This document shows positions 5,997 through 24,056 of a stretch of 24,056 nt of DNA, piece by piece. Position 1 is the stretch's first letter; every line of letters starts with the position of its first letter. The translations under genes and the position numbers were made by a program. The notes below the pieces were generated by a model. The model saw only the letters and a program-made list of their open reading frames with translations, had not been told where the DNA came from and did no database searches. The DNA lies in the IMG/VR virus record IMGVR_UViG_3300010354_000649, positions 1 through 24,056 of that record; one strand, 5' to 3'. This DNA is from a virus.

Positions 5997-6436
5997 TGAG
6001 CATTCAGAGATTATATGAAAATACTGTGGTTAAAGGCGATAATAGAAAAGCCAAACCACCCTTGCCTAGAACATATAGGGGATTTAGCACTATAAGTCCA
6101 GACAGCGAAAACTTTACACTTTATGATCTTTCACTTATCAAGCAGGATTTACTCAATCATTTTCATATAAGACAGGGTGAAAAACTTAATGATCCCACAT
6201 TCGGCACTATAATTTGGGACCTAATTTTTGAACCATTAACACAAGATGTAAAACAATTAGTTCTAGATAACGTGACAACTATAATAAATTATGATCCAAG
6301 GGTTCAGGCTAACAGTATAATCGTAAGCAGTTATCAAACAGGCATACAAATTGAGTGTGAATTAACCTATTTGCCCTATAATGTTAGTGAGAAAATACAG
6401 TTTAGATTTGATCAAAGTTTGGGTTTGATAGGTTAA
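5996..6436 (+). CDS. 25: Baseplate wedge protein gp25
   Basis: The 146-residue protein (T4 gp25 is 132) belongs to the gpW/gp25 family of wedge proteins that start sheath assembly. The diagnostic pattern is HIRQGEKLNDPTFGT at residues 57-71 (the 'R.GE....P.FG' core), followed by LIFEPLTQDV and the INYDPRV block at about 97-103. A variable N-terminal extension is rich in Pro and basic residues (about 10-30). ATG overlaps the gp5 TAA (TAATG), with AAGG at 5982-5985, 10 nt upstream. The gene ends in a tandem stop (TAA TAA, 6434-6439), followed by the only non-trivial gap of the operon. Confidence 0.92.
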   Translation: MSIQRLYENTVVKGDNRKAKPPLPRTYRGFSTISPDSENFTLYDLSLIKQDLLNHFHIRQGEKLNDPTFGTIIWDLIFEPLTQDVKQLVLDNVTTIINYDPRVQANSIIVSSYQTGIQIECELTYLPYNVSEKIQFRFDQSLGLIG

Positions 6437-6459: not shown

Positions 6460-9400
6460 ATGTCATCCACTGATAGACAAAATAGATTGCTTGTAGCCGA
6501 AGATTGGAAGAGAATCTATCAAAGTTTCAAAAATGCTGATTTTACCAGTTATGATTTTGAAAATTTGCGTAGAGTAATGATTGCCTATCTTCGTGAAAAC
6601 TATCCTGAAGATTTTAATGACTACATAGAAAGCAGCGAATATCTAGCACTTATAGATATGATTGCTTTTTTAGGTCAAAGTTTTGCCTTTCGTGTGGATC
6701 TAAATGCTCGTGAAAACTTTTTAGAACTAGCAGAACGTAGGGAAAGTATATTACGATTAGCTCGTACATTAAGTTATAATGCTAAACGTAATAAACCAGC
6801 TACTGGATTACTCAAGTGGGAAAGTATAAGTACCACAGAAGATATTATAGATAGTAATGGTCGCAATATAAGCAACCAAGAAATTATTTGGAATGACCCT
6901 AGCAATTCTAACTGGTTAGATCAATTTATAAGAGTAGTTAATGCTGCATTACCTATGACAGCACAATTTGGTAGTCCAGATTCTGCAAGTAATGTTTTTA
7001 ATATACCAACTGAACAATATAGACTGCAAACTGTGGGAACTAGTGTGCCCGTATATGCCTTTAGTAAAGCAGTTGATGGTCGTAATATGAATTTTGAATT
7101 GGTAAGCACAGTTTTAAAAGATAATAATATCACAGAAGAACCGCCTCTTGCAGGACGTAGGTTAAGTTTCATTTATAGAGATGATGGTAAAGGTGCCGCT
7201 AGCAATAGTAATGGTTTCTTTCTTATGTTTAAACAAGGAAGTCTAAACACAGGCACATTTACATTAAATGAACCAACAACCAATGAAATTGTAGATATTG
7301 ATGCCACTAATATAAATGATAGTGATATTTGGTTGTATAAACTTAATTCTAACGGTAGTGAAAGTGAATATTGGGATAAAGTTTCTAATTTTGAAGCTAA
7401 CAATATCATATACAATAGTGTTAAAAAGAATATTAAAAATATTTACAATGTTATTACACGAACAAATGATAGAGTAAGTTTAGTCTTTGGAGATGGAGTA
7501 TTTGGTAATCTACCATTTGGCACTTTTAGAATATATTACAGAACTAGTAATGGTATAAGCTATACAATAAATCCAAAAGACATGCGTAGCGTCAGTGTAG
7601 ATGTAAGTTACCTATCAAATACGGGACAATTAGAAGTTTTGAGTATAGCTATGAGCCTTCAAAATAGTGTGGCAAATAGTAGCCCTAGTGAAAGTGATGA
7701 TGAAATTAAAGCCAAGGCGCCTGCTACATATTATACTCAAAATAGAATGATCACAGCAGAGGATTACAACATCAGTCCATTGAGTGTAGATCAAGATGTA
7801 TTAAAAATAAAAACAGTGAATAGGTCAAGTAGTGGTATAAGTAGGTATTTCGATCTTATAGATCCTACAGGTAAGTACAGTAGCACTGACTTGTTTAGTG
7901 ATGATGGTATAATTTATAGAGAAGAATATGAAGATACTTTTAGGTTTACCTATAAAAATAGAGTTGAAATACAGGCAGTAATCATAAATCAAGTATTACC
8001 TTACATTAGTAAAATTACTATTAGAAATTATTATTATCAAAAGTTTGCTAGGATAGTTTTAGATTATGATCCTGCTCTACAAATTAAATGGCAACAAAAT
8101 AGTCAAGGTACTAATTTTAGCACTGGCAAATTTAAAAATAATGCAGGGGTGATATTTGGATATAATTCAAATAATACTTTTAAAAGTTTAGAGCCAGGTG
8201 CATTACTTAAATTTGTAGCCCCAGATAATTATGTATTTTTACGCAGTGAAAACAATAGATTAGTTGCAACTAGTTTAAATTTGCCTAATACAACCAAGTA
8301 TGTTTGGGCTAAATTAGTTGATATTACCAGTGACGGGTTAGTTGAAGCACTACCAAATGGTAGTGGACCTATTACACTTAATGAAAAAATTCCTTCCAAT
8401 TCAATTATAACAGAAATTATACCAAAATGGACTATTAAATTAGATGATACTACAATGACACTGATGAATGATCTTATTTTCAACAATAAAGATTTTGGTT
8501 TACGTTATGATTTAGATACAAAAAGTTGGCAATTAGTATTTGATACAAACTTAAATCTTGTTGATCCTTTCAATATCGGAAGAACTGGGGATATAAGCAA
8601 CCAAAAATTAGATAGTAGTTGGTTATTAAGTTTTACAACAGATACAGAAAGATACACTGTGCGTAGTAGAAATTTACGATATATATTTGAAAGTGACAAG
8701 AAAATTAGATTTTATTATGATAAAACTAACAAAGTTTTTGACACAAAAACAAATAAAATTATCAAAGACAAAATAAGTATCCTAAATATTAATACAATAC
8801 CAGATTCACCTTACAGTCCTTTAAATTATTCAATAGATTGGGAAATTATAAATGAATTTATTGGTAATGATGGATATATTGATACTAAAAAGATCGAACT
8901 AACATTTAAAGATTCTAATGATGACGGTGTAGTAGATGATCCAGATATTTTTAACTTAATTGTAAGTCCTAGTAGTACAGATACATATAAGTTTATTATA
9001 CTTAAAAAGTATGAAACAAGTACAGGACAAATAGATTATGCTTGGGTGGAAAATTTGGCACCTGATGGATATCGTTTAATTGACATTGTTAATACATTTG
9101 GTAATATTCCATCTAGTTATTTTGTTGATAAAAAATATGTCTATGTTTATGATACTGATACGTTATTTCAGTATGATATGCTTTTGAATAAATTTGTAGT
9201 AAGTGTGGATTATAAAGTGCATCAAGGACGTAAAGGACTTAAATTTCATTACATTCATAGTGCAGATTATGAGGCTAGAATTGATCCAGGATATAGTAAT
9301 TTTATGGATCTGTATGTTTTAACCAAACAATATGATATAAACTTTAGACAATGGTTGTTAGGAAGTATAGATGTAGAACCAATGCCGCCTAGCACAGACC

Positions 9401-9912
9401 AGTTAGCTATAACTTTAGGTAATAAATTAGAACAAATAAAGGCAATGAGTGATGAAATTATATATCATCCGATAAGATATAAAATTTTATTTGGTGCCAA
9501 AGCTATTCCAAATTTAAGGGCTAGTTTTAAATTAGTTAAAAATCAAGAACAAATTATCAGTGATAATGATCTTAAATCAAGAGTATTAAATTCTATTAAT
9601 GAATTTTTTAGTTTAGAAAATTGGGATTTTGGTGATAGTTTTTATTTTAGTGAGTTAGTTGCTTATATAATGAATAGAACCGCTCCATTTTTAGTTAATA
9701 TTGTGATCGTCCCAAGGCAAGAAGATCTTACTTTTGGTAGTTTATTTGAAATTAAAGCAGAAAATGATCAAATTTTCATAAGTGGAGCTACTACCGAAGA
9801 TTTAGAAATAATTGATAGTATAACAGTGAGTAGCCTTAATGCTACAGGACTTATCAGTACAAATAATACTGTATTAAGTCAACAATTTATTGAGAGCAGA
9901 GCGAGAAATTAA
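6460..9912 (+). CDS. 6: Baseplate wedge protein gp6 (enlarged)
   Basis: This 1,150-residue protein carries recognisable gp6 blocks. Near the N-terminus are YLALIDMIAFLGQSFAFRVD (about 61-80) and NARENFLELAERRESILRLA. The mid-region has FGDGVFGNLPFGTFRIYYR (residues 344-362) and MITAEDYNISPLSVDQDVLK (from about 430). The C-terminus has an NWDFGDSFYFSELVAYI block near 1055 and NRTAPFLVNIVIVPRQ. In T4, gp6 (660 residues) dimerises to form the continuous inner ring that joins the six wedges; the conserved ends fit that role. The roughly 490 extra residues lie mainly between about 480 and 950 and look like beta-rich, Asn/Asp/Ser/Thr-rich added domains. A strong ribosome binding site and a tentative late promoter precede it. 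Its TAA overlaps the ATG of the giant gene. Confidence 0.9.
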   Translation: MSSTDRQNRLLVAEDWKRIYQSFKNADFTSYDFENLRRVMIAYLRENYPEDFNDYIESSEYLALIDMIAFLGQSFAFRVDLNARENFLELAERRESILRLARTLSYNAKRNKPATGLLKWESISTTEDIIDSNGRNISNQEIIWNDPSNSNWLDQFIRVVNAALPMTAQFGSPDSASNVFNIPTEQYRLQTVGTSVPVYAFSKAVDGRNMNFELVSTVLKDNNITEEPPLAGRRLSFIYRDDGKGAASNSNGFFLMFKQGSLNTGTFTLNEPTTNEIVDIDATNINDSDIWLYKLNSNGSESEYWDKVSNFEANNIIYNSVKKNIKNIYNVITRTNDRVSLVFGDGVFGNLPFGTFRIYYRTSNGISYTINPKDMRSVSVDVSYLSNTGQLEVLSIAMSLQNSVANSSPSESDDEIKAKAPATYYTQNRMITAEDYNISPLSVDQDVLKIKTVNRSSSGISRYFDLIDPTGKYSSTDLFSDDGIIYREEYEDTFRFTYKNRVEIQAVIINQVLPYISKITIRNYYYQKFARIVLDYDPALQIKWQQNSQGTNFSTGKFKNNAGVIFGYNSNNTFKSLEPGALLKFVAPDNYVFLRSENNRLVATSLNLPNTTKYVWAKLVDITSDGLVEALPNGSGPITLNEKIPSNSIITEIIPKWTIKLDDTTMTLMNDLIFNNKDFGLRYDLDTKSWQLVFDTNLNLVDPFNIGRTGDISNQKLDSSWLLSFTTDTERYTVRSRNLRYIFESDKKIRFYYDKTNKVFDTKTNKIIKDKISILNINTIPDSPYSPLNYSIDWEIINEFIGNDGYIDTKKIELTFKDSNDDGVVDDPDIFNLIVSPSSTDTYKFIILKKYETSTGQIDYAWVENLAPDGYRLIDIVNTFGNIPSSYFVDKKYVYVYDTDTLFQYDMLLNKFVVSVDYKVHQGRKGLKFHYIHSADYEARIDPGYSNFMDLYVLTKQYDINFRQWLLGSIDVEPMPPSTDQLAITLGNKLEQIKAMSDEIIYHPIRYKILFGAKAIPNLRASFKLVKNQEQIISDNDLKSRVLNSINEFFSLENWDFGDSFYFSELVAYIMNRTAPFLVNIVIVPRQEDLTFGSLFEIKAENDQIFISGATTEDLEIIDSITVSSLNATGLISTNNTVLSQQFIESRARN

Positions 9913-12900
9913 TGTCTGATGAAAATACTTTAGGAGTACCTTTAGATAATAATGAAAAGCGTAAAGCTGAAAGATTTTTACCTCAATTTTATCGTACTGA
10001 TAGTAACAAAAAATTCCTATCAGGAACTATAGATCCTTTAATACAAAGAGGAACAGCTAAAAAACTTAATGGATTTATAGGTAGAAAAAATAGTAAAGCT
10101 AGCAAAGGCGATGATATTTTTTTAAAAGAGGTTACAGATGAACGTAATGCATATCAATTAGAACCTTGTTTAACAACTGAAGACATACTAGGAAATACAA
10201 CCTTTTTTAAAGATTATATAGATTATATTAATACAATTAATGTATTTGGCGGTTTAACTAATAATCATCAAAGATTAAATGTACAAGAATTCTATAGTTG
10301 GAATCCACATATTTGTTGGGACAAATTTGTAAATTATTTGCAATACTATTGGTTACCTTACGGTCCAGAAACAATTAGGATTAATGGTAATAAAACATTA
10401 GATATAGTTAGTACATTTAAAGTTAACATTGTAGACGAAGGTGATAATTTTGCCTATTTAATGACTCCTGATGCACTTACACTAAACCCTGCATTAAGAT
10501 TATATAGAGGGGAAACTTATAGATTTGATATCACTGCTAAAGAACATCCCTTCAGCATACGTACAGATAGAGTAAGTAGTGCTAGCCCTGAATTTAGAGG
10601 TAGTACAAGTTTCAACTACAAACAGCATGGATCTAATAATTTTGAAATTGATATTCTTACAGATTCAGATGTAATACATTTAGAAGCACAACAAAGATTC
10701 GTTACAAGTGGTACAGGTCTTATGAGAGCTAATATTCAAGCTCAAGACGGAACTGTAAGAAGTATTACTAGTACTCAAACTAATCATTTAACACATGTTG
10801 TCTCAATAACACCTACTGCACAAAATCTATTAAAAATTAATGACATTGTAACATTTGATGCTGATATAACAGGGTCTACAGGATTATTAGGTGGTTTAGA
10901 ACCTATACAAACATATTACATAAAGAGTTTTGTATATGATGTTCCTCCAGTACCACCACAAGGAGTAGCCCCAACACCACCTAAAATTATAGGTTTTACA
11001 CTGAATTGGATACCACCTATTAATTTATTTGCAGAAGTTTATGTGAATGGTGCCAAACTCAAGCAAGGTGAATTTAATTTCACCACAAATGTTAAAAGAA
11101 AAAGAGTTTTAAACATACAATCTAATATAGGTAACAATGATGTTGTTATTTTAGATTTTTTTAAACTTAAAGATAATGACCAGTTTAGATATTTTGATGG
11201 TATAAAAACATTTGAAAGGATCAATAACAAACTAGTTGAAAGTAAAAATTTTAGCGTCAGTGATGGAATTTTAGAATTTACTGTATCTTTTGATGCACCT
11301 GATGTATTGTATTATGTTAGTAATGTTGATCCCAATACTAGTGGACTAATAAAGATTTTTGATATTACTGAAAATACTACTATAAATGTTGAACAAGAAG
11401 TAGTTGGTAAAATCAATTATAGTTCACAAGGTATAGATTTAAGCAACGGAATGAAAATTAAATTTGGTGGTTTGGTTTATCCTGTAGCATACCGTGATAG
11501 AGAATTTTACGTTGAAGGTGTAGGTGAAGAAATAAAACTTGTCGATGTTAAAACTTTAGAAGTTGTAACAGATATAGCATACAATGTTGATGTTAATTTC
11601 GACACAGGTGGTTATGATGAACTAGCATTTAATAATGTTAATTATGCAGCTCTAGATAAAGATTATATTGTAATTAATAGATCTAGTCGTGATCGTAATC
11701 CTTGGACTAGATATAATCGTTGGTTTCATAAAGATGTTATTGAAAAAACTGCAAAAATTTTAGGTAAATCAGCTGTTTATGATCAAAGTAAAAGAGCAAT
11801 AAGACCTATTATTGAATTTAATCCTGATATTAGATTGTATAATTTTGGGAATATTAGTAAACAAAATGTAGATTTAATAGACAATTTTACTAAAGATGTG
11901 TTTAGCACTATAGAAGGAAGTCTTGGTTATATTGTAGATGGTATAGAATTATTTAATGGACATAGAATAATCTTTACTGCGGATACAGATATAAGAGTTA
12001 CAAATAAAATCTATAAAGTAGAATTTACCAATGTGTATGATGAAAACACAGGCATTACAAAAAGACTTATACATCTAGCAGAAGAACCTGATGGTATACC
12101 AAAAGAGTTAGAAACTGTATTAGTTTTAGCAGGTAAAGAATACGGTGGAAATATGGTTTGGTTTAACGGAGTTACTTGGGTAAAAGGTCAAGCCAAAACT
12201 TCACTTAATCAAGCACCATTATTTTCTCTATTTGACAAAGATCACACACCTTTGAATGAAATAAGCAAATATGACGGAAGTACATTTAAAGGTACAAAAC
12301 TTTTCTCTTATAGAACTGGCAAAGGTACTACAGATAAAGAATTAGGATTCAGTCTAACCTATAAAAATATTAATAATATAGGTGATATATTATTTGATTT
12401 TAATTTAAGTGTTGATAATTTTAGATACAAAAAAGAAAATAAAGTTGTAGAGGAAAGTGTATCAAATAAATTTTTACAAAAATTATCTTCTGGTAATACA
12501 CAAGATTTAATTAACGGATGGACTAAAAATTCGATTGAAAATGTACAACCAATCGTTAGAATTTTTAAACAAGAATTAGTGGAAAAAAATTCAATTAAAC
12601 AAATACAAGTAAACAATTTTCCATTAGATGTATTTGAAGATAGTACGGATTTAGAAGATTTACGCATTAAAGTTTATGTGAATAATAAGAGATTATCTGA
12701 CAATGAGTATGAGCTTTACCAAGGTGTTGATATAAAATATATCAGATTAGAGCGTGATATAAAAACTGATGATATTTTAACTGTAAAATTATATACAAAA
12801 AAATCAAAAAGCACTGAAAAGGGCTATTATGAGTTCCCAATTAATTTTCAAAATAATCCCTTAAATGAGGACATAACAAATTTTACTCTTGGGGAAGTAA

Positions 12901-15900
12901 TTGATCATGTAAATTCTATTGTAGATAATGTTGATAATTTTGATGGGATATATCCAGGAGCAAGCAATTTAAGAGATATTGGTCAATTATCTGCTAAAGG
13001 ATTAAAATTTGTACAACATAGTGGGAGTCTAAATTTAAGTTTGTATCATTTGACCAATACTGATGCAAATATAATTAGAGCTCTTGAAAAAAGTATGTTT
13101 GATTACAATAGTTTTAAAAAATCCTTTATGTTCAATACAGAATATTTAGAAGAAGGATTGACTGATAAAGATGCTGTAGATAAACTATTGCAAATAATAA
13201 ATCAGAATAAAACTAGTAACATGTCCTATTATTTTAGTGATATGTTAGCTTATTTAGGAGAAAAAAATACACAATTTAAGATCAAAGAGTTTGTTCAAAG
13301 TAAATTTCCGTTATCTGATAATTTTTCTTTAGAAAAATTAACTGAAAAAGCAGTTTACATATATGTTAATGATCAACAATTAATTTACGAAAAGGATTAT
13401 AAATTTACAGGAGATGGGTTTGTAGAACTATTTGTAGAATTAAAAGAAAATGACATTGTAGATATGTATGAATATTCTAGTACAGATGGATGTTTCATAC
13501 CTCCCACTCCAACTAGTTTAGGATTATATCCAAAATATGAACCAAAAATTTATTTAGATACTACTTTGTTAAGTCCACAAAATGTAATACAAGGTCATGA
13601 TGGAAGTATAATTTTAGCATTCAATGATTACAGAGATAATTTAATATTAGAGTTAGAAAAAAGAATTTTTAATAATATTAAGGTAAATTATGATCCACAA
13701 ATTTTAGATATTTATGATTATATTCAAGGACCTAATAGACCTACATCTTACTCTCGAGACGAATTAAATAGAGTATTAGCACCAAACTTTTTTAAATGGA
13801 CTACTTTTGTAGATAAGGACTATACAAAAAGTCAATTATATATACAGTCCAATCCTTTTACTTTTAATTACAGCGAAATTCAAAGCTTTGATTTCACACC
13901 TTTACCAGGATACTGGAGAGGAATTTATAAATGGTATTACGATACAGATCGTATAAATTTATGTCCATGGGAAAGTTTAGGATTCAGCATAGAACCAACA
14001 TGGTGGCAAAACGTGTATGGTCCTGCTCCTTACACCAAAGATAATCTTATATTGTGGAATGATTTACGTGATGGTATTGTACGTGAACCAAATAAACCAA
14101 TTAGAATAGCAAATAAATTTATAAAACCTGTGCTTGAAAATATTCCAACTAATTCTAACGGTTTTTTACTTAATCCCATGGATGCTAATCTAGCTACAGG
14201 ATTGTTCAACGCACGTACAGAAAAGAATTATGTGTTTGGTGATGTTAGCCCAGTAGAAAATGCATGGCGTAGAAGTAGTTACTATCCATTTGCACTTCTT
14301 AAAACCATAATTTTACTAGCACCTAATCGTGTTTTCAGTGTATATTTTGATCGTAGTAGAATAATTAGAGATCAAGCAAGTCAGTTAATATATGAACCTA
14401 CAGGTAAAAGATTAAAATTACAAGATTTATTAATTACTAATACTGTTAATGATCAACAAAGGGTACAGACTTCAGGATTAGTTAATTATATAATAGATTA
14501 CTTGTTAACAAGAAAAAATAAAGCTATTGAAAGCTATAAATTTGACCTACAAAATTTATCAAATAAAATTAGTCATAGGTTAAGTGGTTTTAGCAGTGAA
14601 GAAAAATTTAATTTAATTCTCGATAGTAGAAATATAAATTCAACAACCAGTGTATTTGTACCTAAAGAGAATTATAAAATATTTTTAAACACTGGATCAC
14701 CTACAACACGATTATTTTATAGTGGAGTAATAATAACCAAATTATATACAAGGTATGGTTTAGGTTATGAAATAAAAGGATATAGTCAAAGTCAACCGTT
14801 TTTTTATTATCTACCTTGGTCCAAGTCTGGATTTAAAATAAATGTTGGTGGTATAAGTGAATCATATATTATATATGAACCTAATCAAACCTACGTAGCT
14901 GGTAATATAGTAAAAATTTTAGAAAATTACTATAGAGTAAAAATAAGCCATAATAGTGGACCTAATATAGACTATAGTTTATTAGCGAAATTGCCTAGTT
15001 TACCAATTGTGGGAGGAATTGATGCTGATTTTAGGGCAGAATTTTATAATAACCCACAAATACTTAATTATGGAACTATTCTATACAGTGTGCAGGACGT
15101 GGTTGATTTTATATTAGGTTATGGAGAATATTTAAAAAGTAATGGATTTATATTTGACACCTATATCCCAGAACTAAAGGATGTAGGATCATGGCAATTG
15201 AGTGCCAAAGAATTTATGTTTTGGGTCACACAAAATTGGGGTACTGGTAAAGATTATTATGATGAATGGAAGCCATTTACTAACTATAGAACTGGCGATT
15301 TTATTATCAATAATAATCTTTTTTACAGTGTTAAAGAAGATCATACCACAACAAGTATTTTTGACAGTGACAAATATTTACCAATAGAAAATATAGATAG
15401 TTCAGGAGCAAGTGCAATAAGTTTAAGTCCAGCTGCTCTTGGTATAACTTTAAGTTTAAAATATAACATCGTTGATAATGTAATAAGTCCTTTAGATTAT
15501 GAAATTTTCAAAAGTGATGGTAGTAAATACGAACCTAACGATTTAAATTATTATAGAGATGGTAATAGATTTACTTTAAAACCTAAAAATCAAGACCAAG
15601 GGATATACGGTGTTGGATTTTATCTAGTTCAAAAAGAACATGTTTTAGTGATAGATAATACTACTCAATTTAATGATATTATATACAATACTGCTACAGG
15701 ATATAGACAAGAAAGGCTAAAAGTATATGGATATAAAACTATAGACTGGAATGGAAGTTTTGATAGTCCAGGATTTGTTTATGACTCAGCAACTTTAAGC
15801 GAATGGAGCACATGGACAGACTATAATGTTGGAGATATTGTAAAGTACAAAGAATTTTTCTACACTGCGACACAAAAAATAGTTGGAACAGATGCCTTTG

Positions 15901-18900
15901 ATACTAATGTTTGGCAACGACTTTCGCAATCTCCAACAAGTCAATTACTACCAAATTGGGATTATAAGAGTTTACAATTTTTAGATTTTTATGATTTAGA
16001 TAGTGATAATTTTGATAGTAATCAGCAATCAATAGCACAACATCTTATTGGATATCAAAAACGTCAATATCTAAACAACATTATTAAAAACGATGTAAGT
16101 GAATTTAAATTTTATCAAGGCATGATTACTGAAAAAGGAACATTAAATTCTCTTAACAAATTATTTGATGTTTTAGGTCCTGATAATAAAGAAAGTTTAG
16201 AATTTTTAGAAGAATGGGCAGTGCGTGTAGGTACTTATGGGGCAACAAATACATATGAAGAAATAGAATTTGTTTTAGATGAAATTAAATGGAAAACAGA
16301 ACCTCAAGCTTTTGAACTAGTTAATGAAATTGACCCTACTAAAAAAGATTATGTAATTAGACAAACAGATAATGAACTTTATCTAAAACCAATAAATTAT
16401 AATAAAGATATTTGGCCTATTGCTAATGATTATACAAAATTTCTTAAAACTCCTGGGTTTAGTAAGGTAGAATTTGCAAAACTTATATTAGACGATTTAT
16501 CAGATATATTAACACTACAAGAGAAACAAACTATAGATATAAGTGTAGGAGACTATGTATGGTGCGGGTTTCAAACAAAAATAAACCAATTTGGTGATGA
16601 TTGGAACATTTTTAGATATAACAAACTAGATGTATCAGTGACTATGGTAAGTGTTAGTACCACAGATCCTACAAAATTAATAGTAACATTTAATATTTGG
16701 CCAAACTTTGTAGATGGCGACATAGTTAAATTTAAAAGTAATTATGAAAAGTTTAATAAATTTTATGTTGTTAAAGTTAATTACAATGGTATTACTCCTG
16801 TCAACATAACTATTTCAAAGGATAAAGATTTTCAGCTTAATGAACTACAACTTAACACAAATGAAACTTATACTTTCAACAAGCAAAGATATAATAATAT
16901 TGATGAGGTTGTAATACCTAAATATGTAAACCAAGAAACTAATAAATGGCCATATGGTGAGTTACTTTGGTTTACAGATAGTGAAGGTAAAAATAGTATT
17001 TGGAAAAATAGGAATGTTTATAGACAGGAAAATATTACTAATTTTAGTAATATTGAAAATCAAGAATTTGGACATACTGTAGCAGTTAATGAAGATTCTA
17101 CTGTTTTAGCAGTATTATCAAGAACTGATGAAATTTGGAGTGGCGACTTTTCATCTGGCACAACATATCAAAAAAATAATATTGTATATACAGATAATAA
17201 GTTTTGGAGATGCATTGCTGACACTAGTACAAAAAATATTTTTACTCCAAGTAAAAATTTAGCAAATGTTGAAATAATTGAAGTAGACGGGCAAAAAAGA
17301 TTTTCTTGTGATAGTGTTGAATATCTACAAGTAGGATCTCTAATACAAGTATCTGGCGTATTTGTAGGTTTTGCTCAAATATCAGGGCATGTTGATGGTA
17401 AAATATATAAAGTTAGACAAGTTATTAACAATTTAAACCAAAATGATTTTATTTTAGAGAATTTGGATGGCAGTAATTTAACATTATCAGTTGGTGTACC
17501 AAGTAGTGTAAGTTTTACACTTCAAGGTGATTGGATAGAAACTAATCAATCTAGTAGACAAATTGTAATATTTGTTAAACCTTATTTAAGTACACAATGG
17601 GCTAAAAAACAAGTTATATACGCTGAATCAAATACATTTAAATTTGGTGAAAACATTAGTATAGATAAAAATGGTAGATTTATTGCAATTACAGGAATAA
17701 GAAAAAAGAACAATACTAATCAATTAGAATCTGCTGTATATTTGTATAGTATACCTCAAAGAGTAGTTACATTCAGCAGTGATTATACCCTAACAACAGG
17801 TAATAGATTAGATTATAAAAATAACAAAATAATTATTCCTGGGCACTTACTTGCTGAAGGTACCCTTGTAAAATACACGACTTCAGGTACTCCATTGAAA
17901 GGTTTAGAAAATAATCAAGAATATTATGTTCAAACTCTTGATAGTGAAAGTTTTAGATTAACTAGAGATGTAGATAGAATCGATTTAATTATTTTACAAA
18001 AAAGTGTATCTGGAACTCATTATATAACTAATTTAAATATAGCTCAAGATTATAGTTTGACTACTGTAATATCAAATACTGAAACAACTGATATAAATTT
18101 TGGTAGGAAAATAAGATTTGGTATTATTGAAAATTCTAATCCAATTTTTAACTCTTACAGAATTTTAATTAGTAGCTTTGAAAAGGGTGTATTTGTATAC
18201 AGCTATTTTAATAATATCTTAAACAATCCTATAAAGATAGATAATGCCAATCCTGCTAGTTTTGCATATGATTTTGATATAAGTGCTAATGGATTGAGAA
18301 TTGTCATAAGTGCTCCTAGTCAAGGCAAAGTATTTTTTTACAATAACTCATATACACCATCATTAATAACAGCAACTAATAACGAAGGGTTCGGTCAAAG
18401 TTTAAGTTTGAGCAATGATGGTAGATATTTGGCTATAAGTAGTCCTATTTTTGATCGAATTAGAACAGATCAGGGTAAAGTTAGTGTACTTAAATTAGTT
18501 AATACTTGGATGCCTGATACCTTTTATAATGCAAATGATTTAGTTTTTTACAATTTTAATCATTATATAGTTTTGGTAAACCATACATCACCTAGTAGTT
18601 TCAGTACTAATAATTTACAATTATTGTCTAATATATCTGGAACAAGTCCGTTTTATCTTGATCAAATTATAGAAGATCGCAATCCAGAAAATAATGAAGA
18701 ATTTGGGTATTTTGTTAAATTTTCAAATGAAGTAGATAATATACCAAAAACTTTAATAATTTATAGCAGAAAAGCAGATGCCTTTACTCTGGACACTTAT
18801 GATGACGTACTTTATCCTCAAATAAGTGATACTAATTCAGTTGTAGACGTAGGTAGAATTGACATATTTGATAGATATGTTAGCAAGTTCATTTATTCAG

Positions 18901-21900
18901 AATCTTTACCAGCAAGCAATATTCCTTTAAACACACCTTATAGTTTAGCAATAGGAGAAAATACAATAATTTTAGGAAATCCTAGTATTTTGAAAGAAAA
19001 TAAAAGAGATGGAAAATTGTATCTTTACAACAAAAAGGCTAATACTTATAGTTGGGAACCTTATATTCAACAGCAACCTAATATAAAAATAGATTGGTTT
19101 AAAAAGGTATTTGTTTATAACAAAAAGAGTAATAGTTTTATTAGCTATCTTGACATAATTGATCCTGTACAAGGTAAAATATCAGGTGTTGCAGAACAAG
19201 AGTTAAAATTTAAAACTTATTATGATCCTGCAACTTATTCATTTAAAAATACTAATTTTAATAAAACAGTATCAGTAGATAGCGGTACAGCTTGGACTGA
19301 TAAACATGTGGGAATGCTATGGTGGGATTTACGACGAGCTAAATTTTTGGATGCAGGATTAGGTGATGTTGTCTATAACAATAGTGTATGGAATACTCTT
19401 TTTCCTACAGCCAGTATTGATGTATACGAGTGGGTAGAAAGTAAGCTATTACCTAGCGAATGGGATAGTATAGCTGATACTGTTGAAGGGTTTGCAGATG
19501 GTATCAGTGGAACAAGTTTATATGGTAATAATGTTTACAGTGTCAAAGTAACTTATGACACTTTAAGTAATAAAAATGTACCAACTTACTACTTTTGGGT
19601 TAAAAATAAAGTAATAGTCCCAAATGTCAAAGATAGAAAATATAGCGCATCAGATGTAGCTAGCCTAATTCAAAATCCTAAAAATTATAATATAAAATAC
19701 ATTCAATTTACTTCTAAAAATAGTTGGGGATTAGTTAACGTAAAAAATATTTTAGATAAGAAGGATGTTGTTCTTAGTGTACAATATTGGAATTATGAAC
19801 CTACTGATCTTAAAATTCATAATCAATTTAAAATAATCAGTAATAATAATAAAACCGAAATACCATTAAATATTGAACAAAAATGGTTTGATAGTCTTGT
19901 AGGATTTGATAAAAAAGGAAGAATGTTACCAAACTTAAAAATAAGTCCTAAACTTATGTATGGTATTGAAAATTCTCCAAACCAAACCATGTTTGTTAAT
20001 AGACTTGAAGCTTTAAAGATTTTTATAGAAAATTTAAATTATGAACTTAAAAATATTCAAATAGATAATATAGATATCCAAGATTTATATCTAAAGGATA
20101 ATATTCCTGAATTTAAATTTGGATATTATGATTACATCAAAGATTTCTATGATGAGTTGTCATATATTGTTCCTGATACTTTTCAACCTGGATCTTTACA
20201 GCCAATTATAATAAATGGTAGAATAAACGGTATAAAAATAATTAAGTCAGGTTCAGGATATAAATCTGCGCCAATAGTAAAAGTTAAAGGTAAGGGCTAT
20301 AATGCAGAAGTTAAAACACAAATAAATGCAGCAGGGGCAATTACTAATGTTAACATTATATCTAAAGGTTATGGATATTTAGATGATACTGAATTAGAAA
20401 TAAGACCTTTAAGTGTTCTTATTCGCAGTGACAAATATACACTAAATGATTGGGCTATATATCATTACATAAATGGAAATTGGGTAAAAGCAAAAACTAA
20501 AGAATTTGACGTTACTGAATATTGGTATTTTATAGATTGGTATTCTCCAGGTTATAATCAATACACTAAAATTGATTATAAAATAAAAGGGTTCAATGAA
20601 TTACTTAATCTTAAATGTAATATAGGTGATATAGTTCAAATTGAAAACACACAAGGAACACCTAATTGGACTTTATTTGAAAAAATATCAAATGAATTAG
20701 CTATTGATTATAGTAGAATTTATCGAGTAATTGGAAAGAAAAATGGTGCCATACAAATAAGTAATAACTTTTATGATTTTAAACTAAATGAACAAGGTTA
20801 TGATGGTTTACTTTACGATAGTGATTTATATGACAGAGTTGGAACTATTGAATTAAAGGTTATTTTAGATAGTTTAAAAAATAAAATTCTTATAGATAAT
20901 AGAAGAAGCATTTATATAAATCTATTTTTCAGTAGTCTTAAACATATATTAAAGGAACAACCATTTGTAGATTGGTTCTATAAAACAAGCTTTGTAAAAG
21001 TTCTTCATAATGTAGGTAGTCTAAAACAAAAAATTAATTTTAATAATGATAATTTAAGTGATTATGAAAATTACATTAAGGAAGTTAAACCTTTTAGAAC
21101 AAAGATAAGAGAATTTGTAAGCGTATATGACAATATAGAAAATTCTAACAGCCTTATAACTGATTTTGACGTACCATCATTTGTTACTCCTACAAACACC
21201 ATCAGGAATTTATATACCCAGTATAAAAATAATGGAATATATGTTAATGATAATGTACTTGTAAATCAATATCCATACAAATCTTGGATAGATAATGTTG
21301 GATTTAGTTTGAAAGAAGTAGTTATAGTTGATCCAGGTCAAGGGTATATAGACTACCCTAATATTAAAATTACTGGTGTTTGCAAACGACCTGCCAAAAT
21401 TAAAATTTACATTAGTAGATCAAAAATTAGTAAAATTGACATATTAGATGCGGGAGAAGGGTATTTTAATCCGCCTACAATTAAATTAGAAGGACAATTT
21501 ATTCAAAATGGCTATGAAGCAAAAGTCGTTGCAATTTTAGGAAATAATCCAATTAGAAGTAATCATATTGCCATTAAATTCGACAGATATGCAAAAGAAA
21601 CTATTGCCAATGTGCAAGATATAAATGTTGTCGAAAATTTTATTGGAGATGGAAGCACAATTAGTTTTCTATTAAAATATAGTCCAGAAATAATAAGAAA
21701 TATGATTAAAGTGTACATTAATAATGTGCAGTTATTCAATAATCAATTTTCTATTACAAAAACAACAAACAATGATAAAGGATATAAAATATACATAGGA
21801 CATTTAACATTTCCTAATCCACCAGTTGACAATGCAGCGATTAGAATAGAATATGTTAAAGACTTTAATAATCTAAATGCTTTAGAAAGAATTAAACATT

Positions 21901-24056
21901 ATTATACACCAACAGCAGGTATGTTGGGATTAGAATTTGAGCAGTTAATGACAGGTATTGATTATGCTGGAGTTAGTATAACTGGTATAGGATTTGATAA
22001 AGTTAACACTTGGGACGGTGAATATAGTTGGAGCAGTAAAGGTTGGGATGCAGGTGATCCTACAGATGATGAACGTTTTGATGTTATTGTTGACGGAGGT
22101 AATCTACCTAAACTTAATGCTGCCTATAGAACAGCTAACGGTATACGTGCAGAAGATATAATCATTGATGGCGATAGTTTTATAACACCAATGACTAGTC
22201 CTGCACCAGAAGAAATGGTACCTGGGCATACAGCAGATACACTTGCTATCAAAGTTTTTGAAAGAAATATCAGTGTAACTAGTGAAATTAATTGCGTAAG
22301 ATATATTACTGATGGAATATCTAATGAATTTAAGTTAGATGTTTATCCAAATAATGAAAAAGCAATAATTGTTAAATTAGACGACAACCTTTTAAATTCA
22401 AATGAATATGTATTTGATTATAACACGCTTACTATTACACTTATACAAACCCCGTCAATTAATAAAGATTTAAGTATTATTTGTTTTGGATTTAACGGTA
22501 ATAATTTATTGGCTATTGATAGAGTTGTTGTTACTGAACGTAGTGATACAGTAATTTTAAATACTGACTGGCAAGATAATATCAGTGTTTATACTGTAGT
22601 TGCTGGTGATCCTACAGATTGTATTCCATTTCAAACATTTGGCGCTTATCAATCTAACATACCATATAAGCTAAATGATAATATTGTATATCAAAATCAA
22701 CTATTTCAATCTAAAATCAATAATAATTTTAACAATATTCCGTTAATTTATAGTGAAAATGATAGAGGATTTATAGTTAATAGCACTTTTTGGACTAAAA
22801 TAAAAGATGGTGTTACATCATATACAGAGATAAACAAGATAGGAGTTATACTCCCAATCACGGTGGATGTAGGTGATGTCATTGTTTACAGTGTATTCAT
22901 CGGAGATACAAAAGATCAAAGTGTTTTAACTAAAGAAATAGTAGTTTCAAATGGAACTAGCACCGAATATACATTAAGTAATTTTGTTGGTTATAGTTTT
23001 CCTTTAGCTAGTAATACACTAGTTAGAATCAATAATACTGTTCTTAATAGTATAGATCAGTTCAAGTTTACATTAAAAAATAGACAAACTAAATTTATTA
23101 TACCACTCAATAAAGGTGATATAGATGTTTATTCAACTAATGATTATGAGGTTTACATAAATTCTATAAAAGTTCCTGATGCAATTGCTTACACAATAAA
23201 TCTTTTAGATAATACTATTACAATTAAACCTAATTACTATAGAGAAAATGCCGAAGTTTTAGTTGCTATAACTAAATTTAGTGATTATACAATAAGCAAT
23301 GCAACAGGTAAGTCAGTTCTAACTTTAAGACAAACATACCCATTAGGTACAAGAATTGAAGTTATTGCAATGACTAATCATGATATTTTAAAAATTAATC
23401 GTAATTATTTGACTATAGAAAAAAATGTAAATGCTTTAGAAGATAATCTATACAAAGCTGTTCTTATGGAAGCTAGTGGTGGTATACTATATTTGGGACA
23501 AGAGATAGTTAATAGCAATTATGTTTGGGTAACTAAAAATAAAGAATTATTAGTTCCTTTATTAGATTATCAATTAAGAGAAGATAAGAGCAGTATTAAA
23601 TTATCTGAAACCCCAACTGAAGATGACACATTTGGCTTAATTACTTTCACTAGTAATATAGTTCGTAATCCAGTAAGTTTTATGCAATTTAAAGATATGT
23701 TAAACGATTTTAGTTTTAAGCGTTTGAACAAATATAGAACAACAAGATTAAAAGCTAATTTAAGACAAAATGACAAAGAGATTCTTGTTGAGGATAGTGA
23801 TCATATAGCAGATGGCTTAAGAGACAGTAATACACCAGGTGTAATCTATATAAATGGAGAAAGGATTGAATATTTTGTAAGAACAGGTAATAAGTTAAGT
23901 GAAATACGCAGAGGAACTAGAGGAACTGGTGTTCCACAAATTCACAAAGCAGGAACAGAATTATACGATATAGGTATAGCAGAAACTATTCCCTATACAG
24001 ATACAACTACAATTTACAAAATATTAGGTACTTGGATACCAAGTTATAGATATCTA
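9912..24056 (+). CDS. Giant phage structural protein at the gp7 position (runs off right edge, at least 4,715 aa)
   Basis: From ATG 9912 the frame stays open for 4,715 codons to the window edge; I followed it codon by codon and met no stop. No strong ribosome binding site precedes it, so coupling to gp6 through TAATG is likely. Blocks I associate with large structural proteins of marine myophages include ERFLPQFYRTDSNKKFL (N-terminus), NPWTRYNRWFH (about 595), NQAPLFSLFD (767), PGYWRGIYKWYYDTDR (1332), PTWWQNVYGPAPY (1361), FYQGMITEKGT (2067), VGMLWWDLRRAKF (about 3133), FVDWFYKTSFV (3685) and EVKPFRTKIREFV. T4 has gp7 (1,032 aa, the outer wedge protein) here. Internal modules include an LYRGETYRFD...HPFSI domain (about 197-220), six CBM-like modules, a seven-blade FG-GAP-like propeller and GxGY modules, each listed separately. 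No enzyme motif or signal peptide was seen. A wedge/fibre scaffold that may contact the host surface is inference. Confidence 0.85.
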   Translation, partial: MSDENTLGVPLDNNEKRKAERFLPQFYRTDSNKKFLSGTIDPLIQRGTAKKLNGFIGRKNSKASKGDDIFLKEVTDERNAYQLEPCLTTEDILGNTTFFKDYIDYINTINVFGGLTNNHQRLNVQEFYSWNPHICWDKFVNYLQYYWLPYGPETIRINGNKTLDIVSTFKVNIVDEGDNFAYLMTPDALTLNPALRLYRGETYRFDITAKEHPFSIRTDRVSSASPEFRGSTSFNYKQHGSNNFEIDILTDSDVIHLEAQQRFVTSGTGLMRANIQAQDGTVRSITSTQTNHLTHVVSITPTAQNLLKINDIVTFDADITGSTGLLGGLEPIQTYYIKSFVYDVPPVPPQGVAPTPPKIIGFTLNWIPPINLFAEVYVNGAKLKQGEFNFTTNVKRKRVLNIQSNIGNNDVVILDFFKLKDNDQFRYFDGIKTFERINNKLVESKNFSVSDGILEFTVSFDAPDVLYYVSNVDPNTSGLIKIFDITENTTINVEQEVVGKINYSSQGIDLSNGMKIKFGGLVYPVAYRDREFYVEGVGEEIKLVDVKTLEVVTDIAYNVDVNFDTGGYDELAFNNVNYAALDKDYIVINRSSRDRNPWTRYNRWFHKDVIEKTAKILGKSAVYDQSKRAIRPIIEFNPDIRLYNFGNISKQNVDLIDNFTKDVFSTIEGSLGYIVDGIELFNGHRIIFTADTDIRVTNKIYKVEFTNVYDENTGITKRLIHLAEEPDGIPKELETVLVLAGKEYGGNMVWFNGVTWVKGQAKTSLNQAPLFSLFDKDHTPLNEISKYDGSTFKGTKLFSYRTGKGTTDKELGFSLTYKNINNIGDILFDFNLSVDNFRYKKENKVVEESVSNKFLQKLSSGNTQDLINGWTKNSIENVQPIVRIFKQELVEKNSIKQIQVNNFPLDVFEDSTDLEDLRIKVYVNNKRLSDNEYELYQGVDIKYIRLERDIKTDDILTVKLYTKKSKSTEKGYYEFPINFQNNPLNEDITNFTLGEVIDHVNSIVDNVDNFDGIYPGASNLRDIGQLSAKGLKFVQHSGSLNLSLYHLTNTDANIIRALEKSMFDYNSFKKSFMFNTEYLEEGLTDKDAVDKLLQIINQNKTSNMSYYFSDMLAYLGEKNTQFKIKEFVQSKFPLSDNFSLEKLTEKAVYIYVNDQQLIYEKDYKFTGDGFVELFVELKENDIVDMYEYSSTDGCFIPPTPTSLGLYPKYEPKIYLDTTLLSPQNVIQGHDGSIILAFNDYRDNLILELEKRIFNNIKVNYDPQILDIYDYIQGPNRPTSYSRDELNRVLAPNFFKWTTFVDKDYTKSQLYIQSNPFTFNYSEIQSFDFTPLPGYWRGIYKWYYDTDRINLCPWESLGFSIEPTWWQNVYGPAPYTKDNLILWNDLRDGIVREPNKPIRIANKFIKPVLENIPTNSNGFLLNPMDANLATGLFNARTEKNYVFGDVSPVENAWRRSSYYPFALLKTIILLAPNRVFSVYFDRSRIIRDQASQLIYEPTGKRLKLQDLLITNTVNDQQRVQTSGLVNYIIDYLLTRKNKAIESYKFDLQNLSNKISHRLSGFSSEEKFNLILDSRNINSTTSVFVPKENYKIFLNTGSPTTRLFYSGVIITKLYTRYGLGYEIKGYSQSQPFFYYLPWSKSGFKINVGGISESYIIYEPNQTYVAGNIVKILENYYRVKISHNSGPNIDYSLLAKLPSLPIVGGIDADFRAEFYNNPQILNYGTILYSVQDVVDFILGYGEYLKSNGFIFDTYIPELKDVGSWQLSAKEFMFWVTQNWGTGKDYYDEWKPFTNYRTGDFIINNNLFYSVKEDHTTTSIFDSDKYLPIENIDSSGASAISLSPAALGITLSLKYNIVDNVISPLDYEIFKSDGSKYEPNDLNYYRDGNRFTLKPKNQDQGIYGVGFYLVQKEHVLVIDNTTQFNDIIYNTATGYRQERLKVYGYKTIDWNGSFDSPGFVYDSATLSEWSTWTDYNVGDIVKYKEFFYTATQKIVGTDAFDTNVWQRLSQSPTSQLLPNWDYKSLQFLDFYDLDSDNFDSNQQSIAQHLIGYQKRQYLNNIIKNDVSEFKFYQGMITEKGTLNSLNKLFDVLGPDNKESLEFLEEWAVRVGTYGATNTYEEIEFVLDEIKWKTEPQAFELVNEIDPTKKDYVIRQTDNELYLKPINYNKDIWPIANDYTKFLKTPGFSKVEFAKLILDDLSDILTLQEKQTIDISVGDYVWCGFQTKINQFGDDWNIFRYNKLDVSVTMVSVSTTDPTKLIVTFNIWPNFVDGDIVKFKSNYEKFNKFYVVKVNYNGITPVNITISKDKDFQLNELQLNTNETYTFNKQRYNNIDEVVIPKYVNQETNKWPYGELLWFTDSEGKNSIWKNRNVYRQENITNFSNIENQEFGHTVAVNEDSTVLAVLSRTDEIWSGDFSSGTTYQKNNIVYTDNKFWRCIADTSTKNIFTPSKNLANVEIIEVDGQKRFSCDSVEYLQVGSLIQVSGVFVGFAQISGHVDGKIYKVRQVINNLNQNDFILENLDGSNLTLSVGVPSSVSFTLQGDWIETNQSSRQIVIFVKPYLSTQWAKKQVIYAESNTFKFGENISIDKNGRFIAITGIRKKNNTNQLESAVYLYSIPQRVVTFSSDYTLTTGNRLDYKNNKIIIPGHLLAEGTLVKYTTSGTPLKGLENNQEYYVQTLDSESFRLTRDVDRIDLIILQKSVSGTHYITNLNIAQDYSLTTVISNTETTDINFGRKIRFGIIENSNPIFNSYRILISSFEKGVFVYSYFNNILNNPIKIDNANPASFAYDFDISANGLRIVISAPSQGKVFFYNNSYTPSLITATNNEGFGQSLSLSNDGRYLAISSPIFDRIRTDQGKVSVLKLVNTWMPDTFYNANDLVFYNFNHYIVLVNHTSPSSFSTNNLQLLSNISGTSPFYLDQIIEDRNPENNEEFGYFVKFSNEVDNIPKTLIIYSRKADAFTLDTYDDVLYPQISDTNSVVDVGRIDIFDRYVSKFIYSESLPASNIPLNTPYSLAIGENTIILGNPSILKENKRDGKLYLYNKKANTYSWEPYIQQQPNIKIDWFKKVFVYNKKSNSFISYLDIIDPVQGKISGVAEQELKFKTYYDPATYSFKNTNFNKTVSVDSGTAWTDKHVGMLWWDLRRAKFLDAGLGDVVYNNSVWNTLFPTASIDVYEWVESKLLPSEWDSIADTVEGFADGISGTSLYGNNVYSVKVTYDTLSNKNVPTYYFWVKNKVIVPNVKDRKYSASDVASLIQNPKNYNIKYIQFTSKNSWGLVNVKNILDKKDVVLSVQYWNYEPTDLKIHNQFKIISNNNKTEIPLNIEQKWFDSLVGFDKKGRMLPNLKISPKLMYGIENSPNQTMFVNRLEALKIFIENLNYELKNIQIDNIDIQDLYLKDNIPEFKFGYYDYIKDFYDELSYIVPDTFQPGSLQPIIINGRINGIKIIKSGSGYKSAPIVKVKGKGYNAEVKTQINAAGAITNVNIISKGYGYLDDTELEIRPLSVLIRSDKYTLNDWAIYHYINGNWVKAKTKEFDVTEYWYFIDWYSPGYNQYTKIDYKIKGFNELLNLKCNIGDIVQIENTQGTPNWTLFEKISNELAIDYSRIYRVIGKKNGAIQISNNFYDFKLNEQGYDGLLYDSDLYDRVGTIELKVILDSLKNKILIDNRRSIYINLFFSSLKHILKEQPFVDWFYKTSFVKVLHNVGSLKQKINFNNDNLSDYENYIKEVKPFRTKIREFVSVYDNIENSNSLITDFDVPSFVTPTNTIRNLYTQYKNNGIYVNDNVLVNQYPYKSWIDNVGFSLKEVVIVDPGQGYIDYPNIKITGVCKRPAKIKIYISRSKISKIDILDAGEGYFNPPTIKLEGQFIQNGYEAKVVAILGNNPIRSNHIAIKFDRYAKETIANVQDINVVENFIGDGSTISFLLKYSPEIIRNMIKVYINNVQLFNNQFSITKTTNNDKGYKIYIGHLTFPNPPVDNAAIRIEYVKDFNNLNALERIKHYYTPTAGMLGLEFEQLMTGIDYAGVSITGIGFDKVNTWDGEYSWSSKGWDAGDPTDDERFDVIVDGGNLPKLNAAYRTANGIRAEDIIIDGDSFITPMTSPAPEEMVPGHTADTLAIKVFERNISVTSEINCVRYITDGISNEFKLDVYPNNEKAIIVKLDDNLLNSNEYVFDYNTLTITLIQTPSINKDLSIICFGFNGNNLLAIDRVVVTERSDTVILNTDWQDNISVYTVVAGDPTDCIPFQTFGAYQSNIPYKLNDNIVYQNQLFQSKINNNFNNIPLIYSENDRGFIVNSTFWTKIKDGVTSYTEINKIGVILPITVDVGDVIVYSVFIGDTKDQSVLTKEIVVSNGTSTEYTLSNFVGYSFPLASNTLVRINNTVLNSIDQFKFTLKNRQTKFIIPLNKGDIDVYSTNDYEVYINSIKVPDAIAYTINLLDNTITIKPNYYRENAEVLVAITKFSDYTISNATGKSVLTLRQTYPLGTRIEVIAMTNHDILKINRNYLTIEKNVNALEDNLYKAVLMEASGGILYLGQEIVNSNYVWVTKNKELLVPLLDYQLREDKSSIKLSETPTEDDTFGLITFTSNIVRNPVSFMQFKDMLNDFSFKRLNKYRTTRLKANLRQNDKEILVEDSDHIADGLRDSNTPGVIYINGERIEYFVRTGNKLSEIRRGTRGTGVPQIHKAGTELYDIGIAETIPYTDTTTIYKILGTWIPSYRYL
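14874..14996 (+). other. CBM5/12-like aromatic module 1 in the giant protein
   Basis: Residues about 1655-1695 read YEPNQTYVAGNIVKI followed by ENYYRVKISHNSGP. This fits the pattern 'Y..G..V......Y.......' of small chitin/cellulose-binding modules (carbohydrate-binding module families 5/12). It lacks the leading and trailing Trp of the best copy. Confidence 0.4.
15255..15395 (+). other. CBM5/12-like aromatic module 2 in the giant protein
   Basis: Residues about 1782-1828 contain YYDEWKPFTNYRTGDFI, then LFYSVKEDHT and FDSDKYLPI. The W...Y..GD......Y sequence matches the carbohydrate-binding module pattern. Confidence 0.45.
15804..15923 (+). other. CBM5/12-like aromatic module 3 in the giant protein (best copy)
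   Basis: Residues about 1965-2004 contain WSTWTDYNVGDIVKYKEFF, YTATQKIVGTDAFD and a closing NVWQRL. All the usual landmarks of a CBM5/12-type module are present: opening Trp, Y..GD.V.Y core, aromatic strand and closing Trp. Confidence 0.55.
17136..17262 (+). other. CBM5/12-like aromatic module 4, after propeller blade 1
   Basis: Residues about 2409-2450 contain WSGDFSSGTTYQKNNIVYT, then KFWRCIADT and FTPSKN. The pattern is the same, with NN in place of GD. The module lies between propeller blades 1 and 2. Confidence 0.45.
18507..18635 (+). other. CBM5/12-like aromatic module 5, between propeller blades 5 and 6
   Basis: Residues about 2866-2908 contain WMPDTFYNANDLVFYNFNHY, then LVNHTSPSSF and LQLLS. 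The W....Y...D.V.Y....Y core is intact, but the closing Trp is absent. It separates blade 5 from blade 6. Confidence 0.45.
20232..20408 (+). other. First pair of GxGY beta modules in the giant protein
   Basis: Residues about 3441-3499 contain IKIIKSGSGYKSAPIVKVKG, then AGAITNVNIISKGYGYLDD. The 'I....G.GY...P.I.I.G' unit is a small beta repeat common in phage structural proteins. Two units stand in tandem. Confidence 0.6.
21315..21540 (+). other. Second pair of GxGY beta modules in the giant protein
   Basis: Residues about 3802-3877 contain VVIVDPGQGYIDYPNIKITG and KIDILDAGEGYFNPPTIKLE. The unit is the same as in the first pair about 360 residues earlier, but the DNA is divergent. The conserved FVDWFYKTSFV and EVKPFRTKIREFV blocks lie between the two pairs. 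Confidence 0.6.
22638..22805 (+). other. CBM5/12-like aromatic module 6 in the C-terminal part of the giant protein
   Basis: Residues about 4243-4298 contain FGAYQSNIPYKLNDNIVYQN, LFQSKINNNF and a closing TFWTKI. It has the Y..ND.VY core and a closing Trp, with a longer insert before the Trp than in the other copies. Confidence 0.45.

Follow-up and report, generated by a model that had tools for sequence, protein, structure and literature searches.

A giant gene at the gp7 place of a T4-type baseplate cluster encodes a member of a RaK2-type virion structural protein family with a predicted beta-propeller

The core of gp7-type proteins is described, in the sections available of PMC10457771, as a set of helices, comprising the core bundle and the trifurcation, packed against the gp6 dimer. 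The same sections describe XM1 gp17, a gp7 orthologue, as holding spikes through a loop and its C-terminal region, which provides an analogy for a wedge scaffold that carries surface modules. The protein encoded after gp6 measures 503 aa in YB07, 1,016 aa in HTVC008M, 1,032 aa in T4 (the length assumed in an earlier, sequence-only reading of the DNA analysed here), 3,515 aa in S-RSM4, 4,225 aa in ACG-2014f and 6,076 aa in Syn9. The RAS14 protein, at 3,138 aa, is assigned to PHROG 10938, a family of giants from RaK2-type jumbo phages named 'virion structural protein'; those of Syn9 and S-RSM4 are assigned to PHROG 701 and PHROG 4406, respectively. Members of PHROG 10938, a family with no assigned function, include RaK2 gp465 (3,326 aa), CBB_236 (3,340 aa), SCTP-2 140 (3,807 aa), PA5oct gp355 (3,857 aa), Atu_ph07 gp180 (4,449 aa) and Phosso 294 (4,555 aa). 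We group with them AP-J-162 ORF58 (4,455 aa), without a family search; it is printed as 'Structural protein' in the available part of PMC11242549.

Homologues of this kind are found in virions. PA5oct gp355 was seen there by mass spectrometry, according to a note in its record. The accessible texts report 21 unique virion peptides (7.72% coverage) for CBB_236, whose gene directly follows gp6 (PMC5259590), and 17 peptides (7.6% coverage) for phAPEC6 gp245, a protein of 381.88 kDa (PMC7247149). We infer from its size and its 'baseplate wedge' neighbour that gp245 is an orthologue. Coverage of 7–8%, as given in these texts for the two homologues, falls short of proving a full-length product. Neither the RaK2 genome paper nor the Alcyoneusvirus adsorption paper mentions gp070 or gp70 in its main text.

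The window, that is, the whole stretch of DNA analysed here, is a complete IMG/VR record of 24,056 b. It contains the following genes:

500-1534, + strand: virion structural protein of 344 residues (phrog_12050), TTG start as listed, which opens the forward-strand structural cluster
1534..1836, + strand: baseplate wedge subunit (phrog_7145, E 5e-28)
1837..4353, + strand: virion structural protein (phrog_11190)
4353..5996, + strand: hub protein (phrog_13211 and phrog_430, 'baseplate hub subunit and tail lysozyme')
5996..6436, + strand: baseplate wedge protein (phrog_261 and phrog_43, 'baseplate wedge subunit')
6460..9912, + strand: gp6-like baseplate wedge protein, 1,150 aa (phrog_10646, E 1e-293; phrog_219, E 2e-23)
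9912..24056, + strand: giant structural frame (PHROG 10938), with about 250 codons and the stop missing by comparison with sister contigs G001 and G002

We take the T4 counterparts of 1534..1836, 4353..5996 and 5996..6436 to be gp53, gp5 and gp25, respectively. The giant follows the gp25-like and gp6-like genes and thus occupies T4's gp7 place in a T4-type baseplate cluster, the position that the sequence-only reading had given it. Its ATG overlaps the stop of the gp6-like gene by one base. The G+C content of the window falls from 0.32–0.37 in the first 8 kb to 0.25–0.31 from inside the gp6-like gene to the end.

From its ATG the giant frame runs for 4,715 codons without a stop up to the contig edge. 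The product as truncated by the contig has a computed mass of 540.9 kDa, in agreement with the earlier estimate of at least 4,715 codons and about 540 kDa. Because the window is the complete record, the contig edge is what truncates the gene at its 3′ end. The stop that was to be sought beyond the contig lies in sister contigs G001 and G002, where the frame extends 762 bases (254 codons including the stop) past the part that matches the end of the window. Three other IMG/VR contigs hold the complete frame (L007, 4,917 aa; L008 and L009, 4,915 aa each), with 85% identity to the window over the first 2,000 residues and 91–92% over the window's last 1,000. The proteins of L008 and L009 are identical, so these two were counted as one (duplicate removal took 41 sequences to 39). 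More broadly, a peptide-pattern scan of viral contigs matched 529 stretches, every one of which encodes a relative. The best 80 of the 529, together with five isolates, made up a set of 85 loci (L002–L086); both gene ends are present in 40 of them, at lengths of 3,326–5,089 aa.

Compared with L007 and L008, dN/dS was 0.03–0.20 in all 250-codon blocks (pS 0.48–0.64), indicating purifying selection throughout, and peaked at residues 2251–3000. Given these values and the complete relatives, a chance frame is ruled out and missed frameshifts are unlikely; on the sequence evidence the giant frame is no chance open frame, and the claim that it is a real structural gene holds. Conserved blocks had been said to run along the whole length. 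This is largely the case, with exceptions at a variable region (residues ~2200–3050), an insert (~201–400) and a more weakly conserved segment (4201–4300). The window DNA yielded no tandem repeats, and a sequence search of the whole giant frame against the PDB gave no match at E ≤ 1.

The giant matches a single PHROG, 10938, at E ≤ 0.01 (E 0, 1,081.9 bits, five stretches). When the giant was searched in two pieces, each matched 57 of 50,697 phage records, all at below 60% identity. These are RaK2-type jumbo phages of Klebsiella, Escherichia, Salmonella, Erwinia, Pseudomonas, Agrobacterium and others, and they include a marine Vibrio phage and a Salicola phage; no Synechococcus or Prochlorococcus phage is among the organism names of the 57. 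The expectation of large homologues in marine myophages was therefore borne out in part: Syn9, ACG-2014f and S-RSM4 have big proteins in the gp7 slot, but HTVC008M does not, and the homologues by sequence are those of RaK2-type jumbo phages. Tested by profile, 12 of 15 records carry PHROG 10938, with no match in Syn9, T4 or YB07. All 12 also carry the gp6-type PHROG 10646, and the two genes adjoin in 11. The exception is SCTP-2 (MF360958), with about 92 kb between them (giant, 127770-139193; gp6-type gene, 231230-234952); there a hypothetical protein of 3,097 residues precedes the giant.

The PHROG 10938 giants share with the window's the family match, this gp6-type neighbour and a conserved KGT block, and differ in having 23–29% identity to its first 2,000 residues. 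The giants of RaK2, PA5oct and SCTP-2 differ further in lacking the FG-GAP match described below and in being shorter at that place. Among the nearest predicted viral structures (BFVD) are the giant of Atu_ph07 and proteins of uncultured phages at 24–40% identity; two of these are named 'YHYH domain', a name that no Pfam match in the window backs.

Beyond the giant, sister contigs G002 and G004 carry genes for a collagen-like fibre, a subtilase, a protein of 202 residues and three proteins of fibre type (collagen-like and Peptidase_S8 genes at L101:1552-4418 in G002 and L102:16170-18841, minus strand, in G004). In G002 the family search gave Collagen at E 8e-38 and Peptidase_S8 at E 1e-29; in G004 the subtilase was confirmed by search and the remainder assigned by reading. 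Both contigs also hold a 275-residue frame after the tail genes (L101:14432-15259, L102:4803-5630). Read by eye, this frame looks like a KDO-8-phosphate synthase and its neighbours like glycosyltransferases.

We then asked whether the giant resembles gp7 in more than its position. At E ≤ 0.01 none of the three gp7 family profiles (PHROG 964, 26741 and 17744) matched it. The same profiles found no gp7 core in any of seven giant-bearing records (PA5oct, RaK2, Atu_ph07, SCTP-2, Phosso, RAS14 and G004), and the weak hits that Atu_ph07, Phosso and G004 gave fall in repeat parts of the profiles; as a control, they do detect the gp7 of T4, YB07 and Syn9. Gene position and elimination, no other gp7 core having been found, point to the giant as the leading candidate for the gp7 slot. 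With T4 gp7 and the compact gp7 of YB07 it shares the position after gp6 and a KG(T) motif, but there is no family match and the giant is nearly five times the length of T4 gp7. With the cyanophage giants (Syn9, S-RSM4 and ACG-2014f) it shares size and place, and with Syn9 also GxGY repeats; however, Syn9 and S-RSM4 match gp7 profiles, whereas the window giant does not. The Syn9 giant carries a gp7 core, matched by gp7 profiles at E 3e-15 and 9e-6. One of these profiles matches it twice, about 640 residues apart, at profile positions 6–51 (E 0.002) and 84–177 (E 3e-15). T4-like gp7 proteins align with the Syn9 giant at a 25-residue KGT motif, singly weakly (E ~0.4–10 among the matches listed).

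Two stretches of the window giant bear on this comparison:

9912..10271, + strand: N-terminus of the giant, LPxFYRTD..., residues 1-120; LP pair aligned in 14 of 15 giants
15948..16241, + strand: most conserved block, FYQGMITEKGT, residues 2013-2110, candidate gp7-like core; motif pattern in 15 of 15 giants

Among 77 slices, slice 1–120 ranked first against the first gp7 half-core (score 18.6, next 16.0, probability 3.5%). Slices 1981–2100 and 2041–2160 tied for first against the second half-core (19.9, next 16.5, probability 4.5%), aligning in register with the gp7 KG motif. In a 27-member alignment the KGT block scored 18.4, reached by 2 of 100 shuffles. In an alignment of 15 diverse giants it scored 19.7, reached by 2 of 200 column shuffles, and the N-terminal score fell to 14.7, a value that 6 or more of the 200 shuffles exceeded. 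Comparison of 12 giant slices with T4-type gp7 by hhalign gave nothing. Pfam searches on the candidate core (26 members) returned no consistent family, the commonest being Phage_T7_Capsid (5 members, best E 0.07). The candidate core was modelled at a pLDDT of only 28–47, and T4 gp7 is absent among the structural matches listed for the giant models, an absence that excludes nothing. A relationship to P2 gpI was also considered and the comparison with the giant gave nothing; Tail_P2_I was found in P2 alone (1 of 11 records) and does not discriminate, because T4, YB07 and Syn9 were missed too. The short in-register KGT motif is at most suggestive of homology to T4 gp7. Because the direct evidence is weak and the motifs were seen before testing, we did not file the giant as a gp7 family member.

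A stronger version of this likeness would make the giant a true gp7 orthologue with a split core, its N-terminal half and residues 2013–2110 being separated by about 2,000 inserted residues; Syn9 would follow the same plan with a shorter insert. The top ranks of both sets of slices, the KG motif in register and the double profile match in Syn9 all point this way. Nevertheless, the probabilities of 3.5% and 4.5% are far below those expected of homology (T4-type against cyanophage or YB07 gp7 gave 40.8% and 97.7%), the first half lost its score among diverse giants even as few shuffles reached the second, and both motifs had been noticed by eye ahead of the scoring. We regard orthology through a split core as possible but lean against it. 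Alternatively, the giant could be a fibre or whisker protein that lies near gp6 by gene order and has no part in the wedge. The available texts describe tail whiskers in CBB (PMC5259590) and hair-like fibres in phAPEC6 (PMC7247149), the frame contains motifs of carbohydrate-binding type, BFVD matches outside the family include tail fibres and the SCTP-2 giant is not next to gp6. Set against this are the gp6-type neighbour in 11 of 12 records and the lack of any collagen or fibre family match to the giant, and we consider such a protein unlikely.

Cleavage of the giant as a polyprotein by the downstream subtilase, to give several products, would fit the position of the Peptidase_S8 gene, two genes beyond the giant in both G002 and G004, and the presence of S8 matches in half of the examined records (12 of 24). 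Yet PA5oct, RaK2, SCTP-2 and RAS14 have the giant but no S8 match, the S8 matches of Atu_ph07 and Phosso lie in large frames far from it, and no cut sites are known, which makes this reading very improbable. As the window is a metagenome contig cut at its end, an assembly artefact or missed frameshifts might also be suspected; the same stop-free frame in other contigs and in five isolates, under purifying selection throughout, leaves a vanishingly small chance of either.

We therefore favour, as the probable reading, that the giant is a virion protein of RaK2-type jumbo myophages that fills the gp7 place in the baseplate wedge and combines a conserved scaffold with lineage-specific modules. 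This role rests on the gp7 slot, on the absence of another recognisable gp7 in seven records, and on a site whose filling differs between lineages (little, a propeller or something else). The scaffold (residues ~1–200, 500–2200 and 3050–4700) would pack against the gp6 dimer, keeping the wedge together, and one copy per wedge would give about six per virion. Surface modules would be seated in inserts of the scaffold, the main one in the window's lineage being a predicted FG-GAP beta-propeller with CBM5/12-like motifs nearby, which would most likely contact the cell surface or dock fibres. If so, the wedge protein would host surface modules that T4 puts in separate proteins, and a family known as 'virion structural protein' would gain a testable role. 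A bolder and improbable extension would make the wedge protein itself the adhesion device: its gp7-type core, split by about 2,000 residues, would offer a fixed site at which lineages exchange large modules, here an integrin-type propeller built into the wedge, and surface binding by that propeller could tug the gp6 ring and so set off contraction with no separate fibre connector in between. Giant size alone is not new, the family being already known from jumbo phages. In the literature searched, to the extent that its texts were available, we found no description of the propeller-bearing form or of the gp7-slot placement and no paper linking a giant protein to the baseplate wedge.

The scaffold reading leads to the variable region, which had been marked for structure prediction in pieces:

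16893..19061, + strand: predicted FG-GAP beta-propeller with inserts, residues ~2328-3050 (AlphaFold2, Foldseek, VIA-align, Pfam FG-GAP_2 on slice)

An AlphaFold2 model of residues 1985–3130, built from 30 homologous slices, had a mean pLDDT of 59.3 and a pTM of 0.59. In ten-residue blocks the propeller part was mostly at 50–90 and its inserts at 32–45, and the rest of the model was poor. Foldseek's top hits in the PDB were propellers of the WD40 and integrin-alpha kinds (lowest E 4e-7; E 3e-6 for integrin alpha5). VIA-align gave a Z of 18.0 for a WD40 chain and for integrin alphaL alike, with TolB within 1, so these are tied; the integrin alphaL alignment spans 295 residues at 4.1 Å (model residues 384–1061, protein ~2368–3045). 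Seven blade-like motifs were counted by reading, at 2386, 2578, 2730, 2785, 2827, 2931 and 3008; a regular expression for FG-GAP motifs proved too strict for blade counts across homologues.

Pfam FG-GAP_2 was found in 22 of the 30 slices (E ≤ 0.01), the window slice scoring 23.3 bits, narrowly over the 23.0 cut-off. FG-GAP_2 is listed in whole L030, but not in the whole-frame scan of the window giant (E ≤ 1) or in whole L008 (E ≤ 0.01). Of 24 records searched in six frames (E ≤ 0.01), 13 gave an FG-GAP_2 match, 4 of them over the cut-off: in giant-length frames of 11 of 17 IMG/VR records, and in other frames of Phosso and Atu_ph07. That search found none in G001–G004 (the nearest kin), G008, G012, PA5oct, RaK2, SCTP-2, Syn9 or RAS14. 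From fold and family together, residues ~2328–3050 are predicted to form a beta-propeller of the FG-GAP (integrin-alpha) type. With the integrin alpha headpiece the window shares the predicted fold and Pfam FG-GAP_2; its own propeller differs in being broken by inserts, in its structural tie with WD40 and TolB, and in showing no sign of integrin-like binding. Phage phi11 of S. aureus reportedly has a propeller in its host-recognition device, a separate protein of a siphophage; the likeness lies in having a propeller in a phage receptor-binding device.

The stretch between the two conserved blocks that flank this region measures 181 aa in RaK2, 283 in PA5oct, 448 in SCTP-2 and 861 in the window, 580–1,041 in the IMG/VR set and 1,473–1,480 in Phosso and Atu_ph07. 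Because its length varies from 181 to 1,480 aa, we take this site to be a place where lineages differ in cargo. Elsewhere in the Phosso record are two more giant genes (3,162 and 3,692 aa; L119:2339-22979, record 48338-68978), annotated hypothetical and with many FG-GAP matches; the record has 55 such matches in total (E ≤ 0.01). Atu_ph07 has four FG-GAP matches in a 409-codon frame annotated 'hemagglutinin protein' (L120:3019-4200), and so an FG-GAP-type repeat protein is also a separate gene in this phage group. A literature search on phage FG-GAP in propeller, tail fiber and baseplate contexts found, within the texts available, no paper naming FG-GAP.

The giant had been suggested as a possible fusion of a wedge protein with fibre-like material. 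This was not supported, no collagen or fibre family in PHROG or Pfam having matched the frame; the extra mass appears to consist of beta modules, namely the predicted propeller and the following, of which the cupredoxin-like domain is included with a perhaps:

10377..11381, + strand: tentative cupredoxin-like domain, split by an insert, residues ~156-490 (structural alignment, Z 9.4)
15801..15878, + strand: CBM5/12-like motif, best of four stretches, residues 1964-1989 (Pfam PF02839)
18504..18596, + strand: CBM5/12-like motif within the propeller stretch, residues 2865-2895 (Pfam on slice, slice residues 881-911)
20250..20411, + strand: GxGY repeat pair common to the Syn9 giant, residues ~3447-3500 (hhalign 96.9%, E 2e-10, single pair)
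21336..21491, + strand: second GxGY repeat pair, residues ~3809-3860 (hhalign 96.1%, E 3e-9)

Slice-by-slice comparison with the post-gp6 proteins of marine T4-like phages, as the sequence-only reading had proposed, was productive for the GxGY repeats and not for gp7. Across 12 slices the only strong hhalign matches were to the Syn9 repeats (up to 96.9%), with weaker ones to HTVC008M (up to 53.4%). The N-terminal model (mean pLDDT 57.6) found nothing in the PDB by Foldseek at E ≤ 0.001; the second-ranked entry, at E 0.01, was a phage KP1-variant baseplate chain. Its cupredoxin alignment reached a Z of 9.4 at best (2.5 Å over 105 residues) against a background of 7–8, and so lies little above it. 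The residues that we take to bind copper in cupredoxins are not visible at the expected place. Pfam PF02839 (CBM family 5/12) scored 55.0 bits over the giant frame, above its cut-off of 26.2; matches below the cut-off occur in PA5oct, Atu_ph07 and Phosso, and RaK2 has none. Vibrio phage 2.275.O has the annotation 'carbohydrate-binding module family 5/12' on the gp6-type gene that precedes its giant (L121:1-2361).
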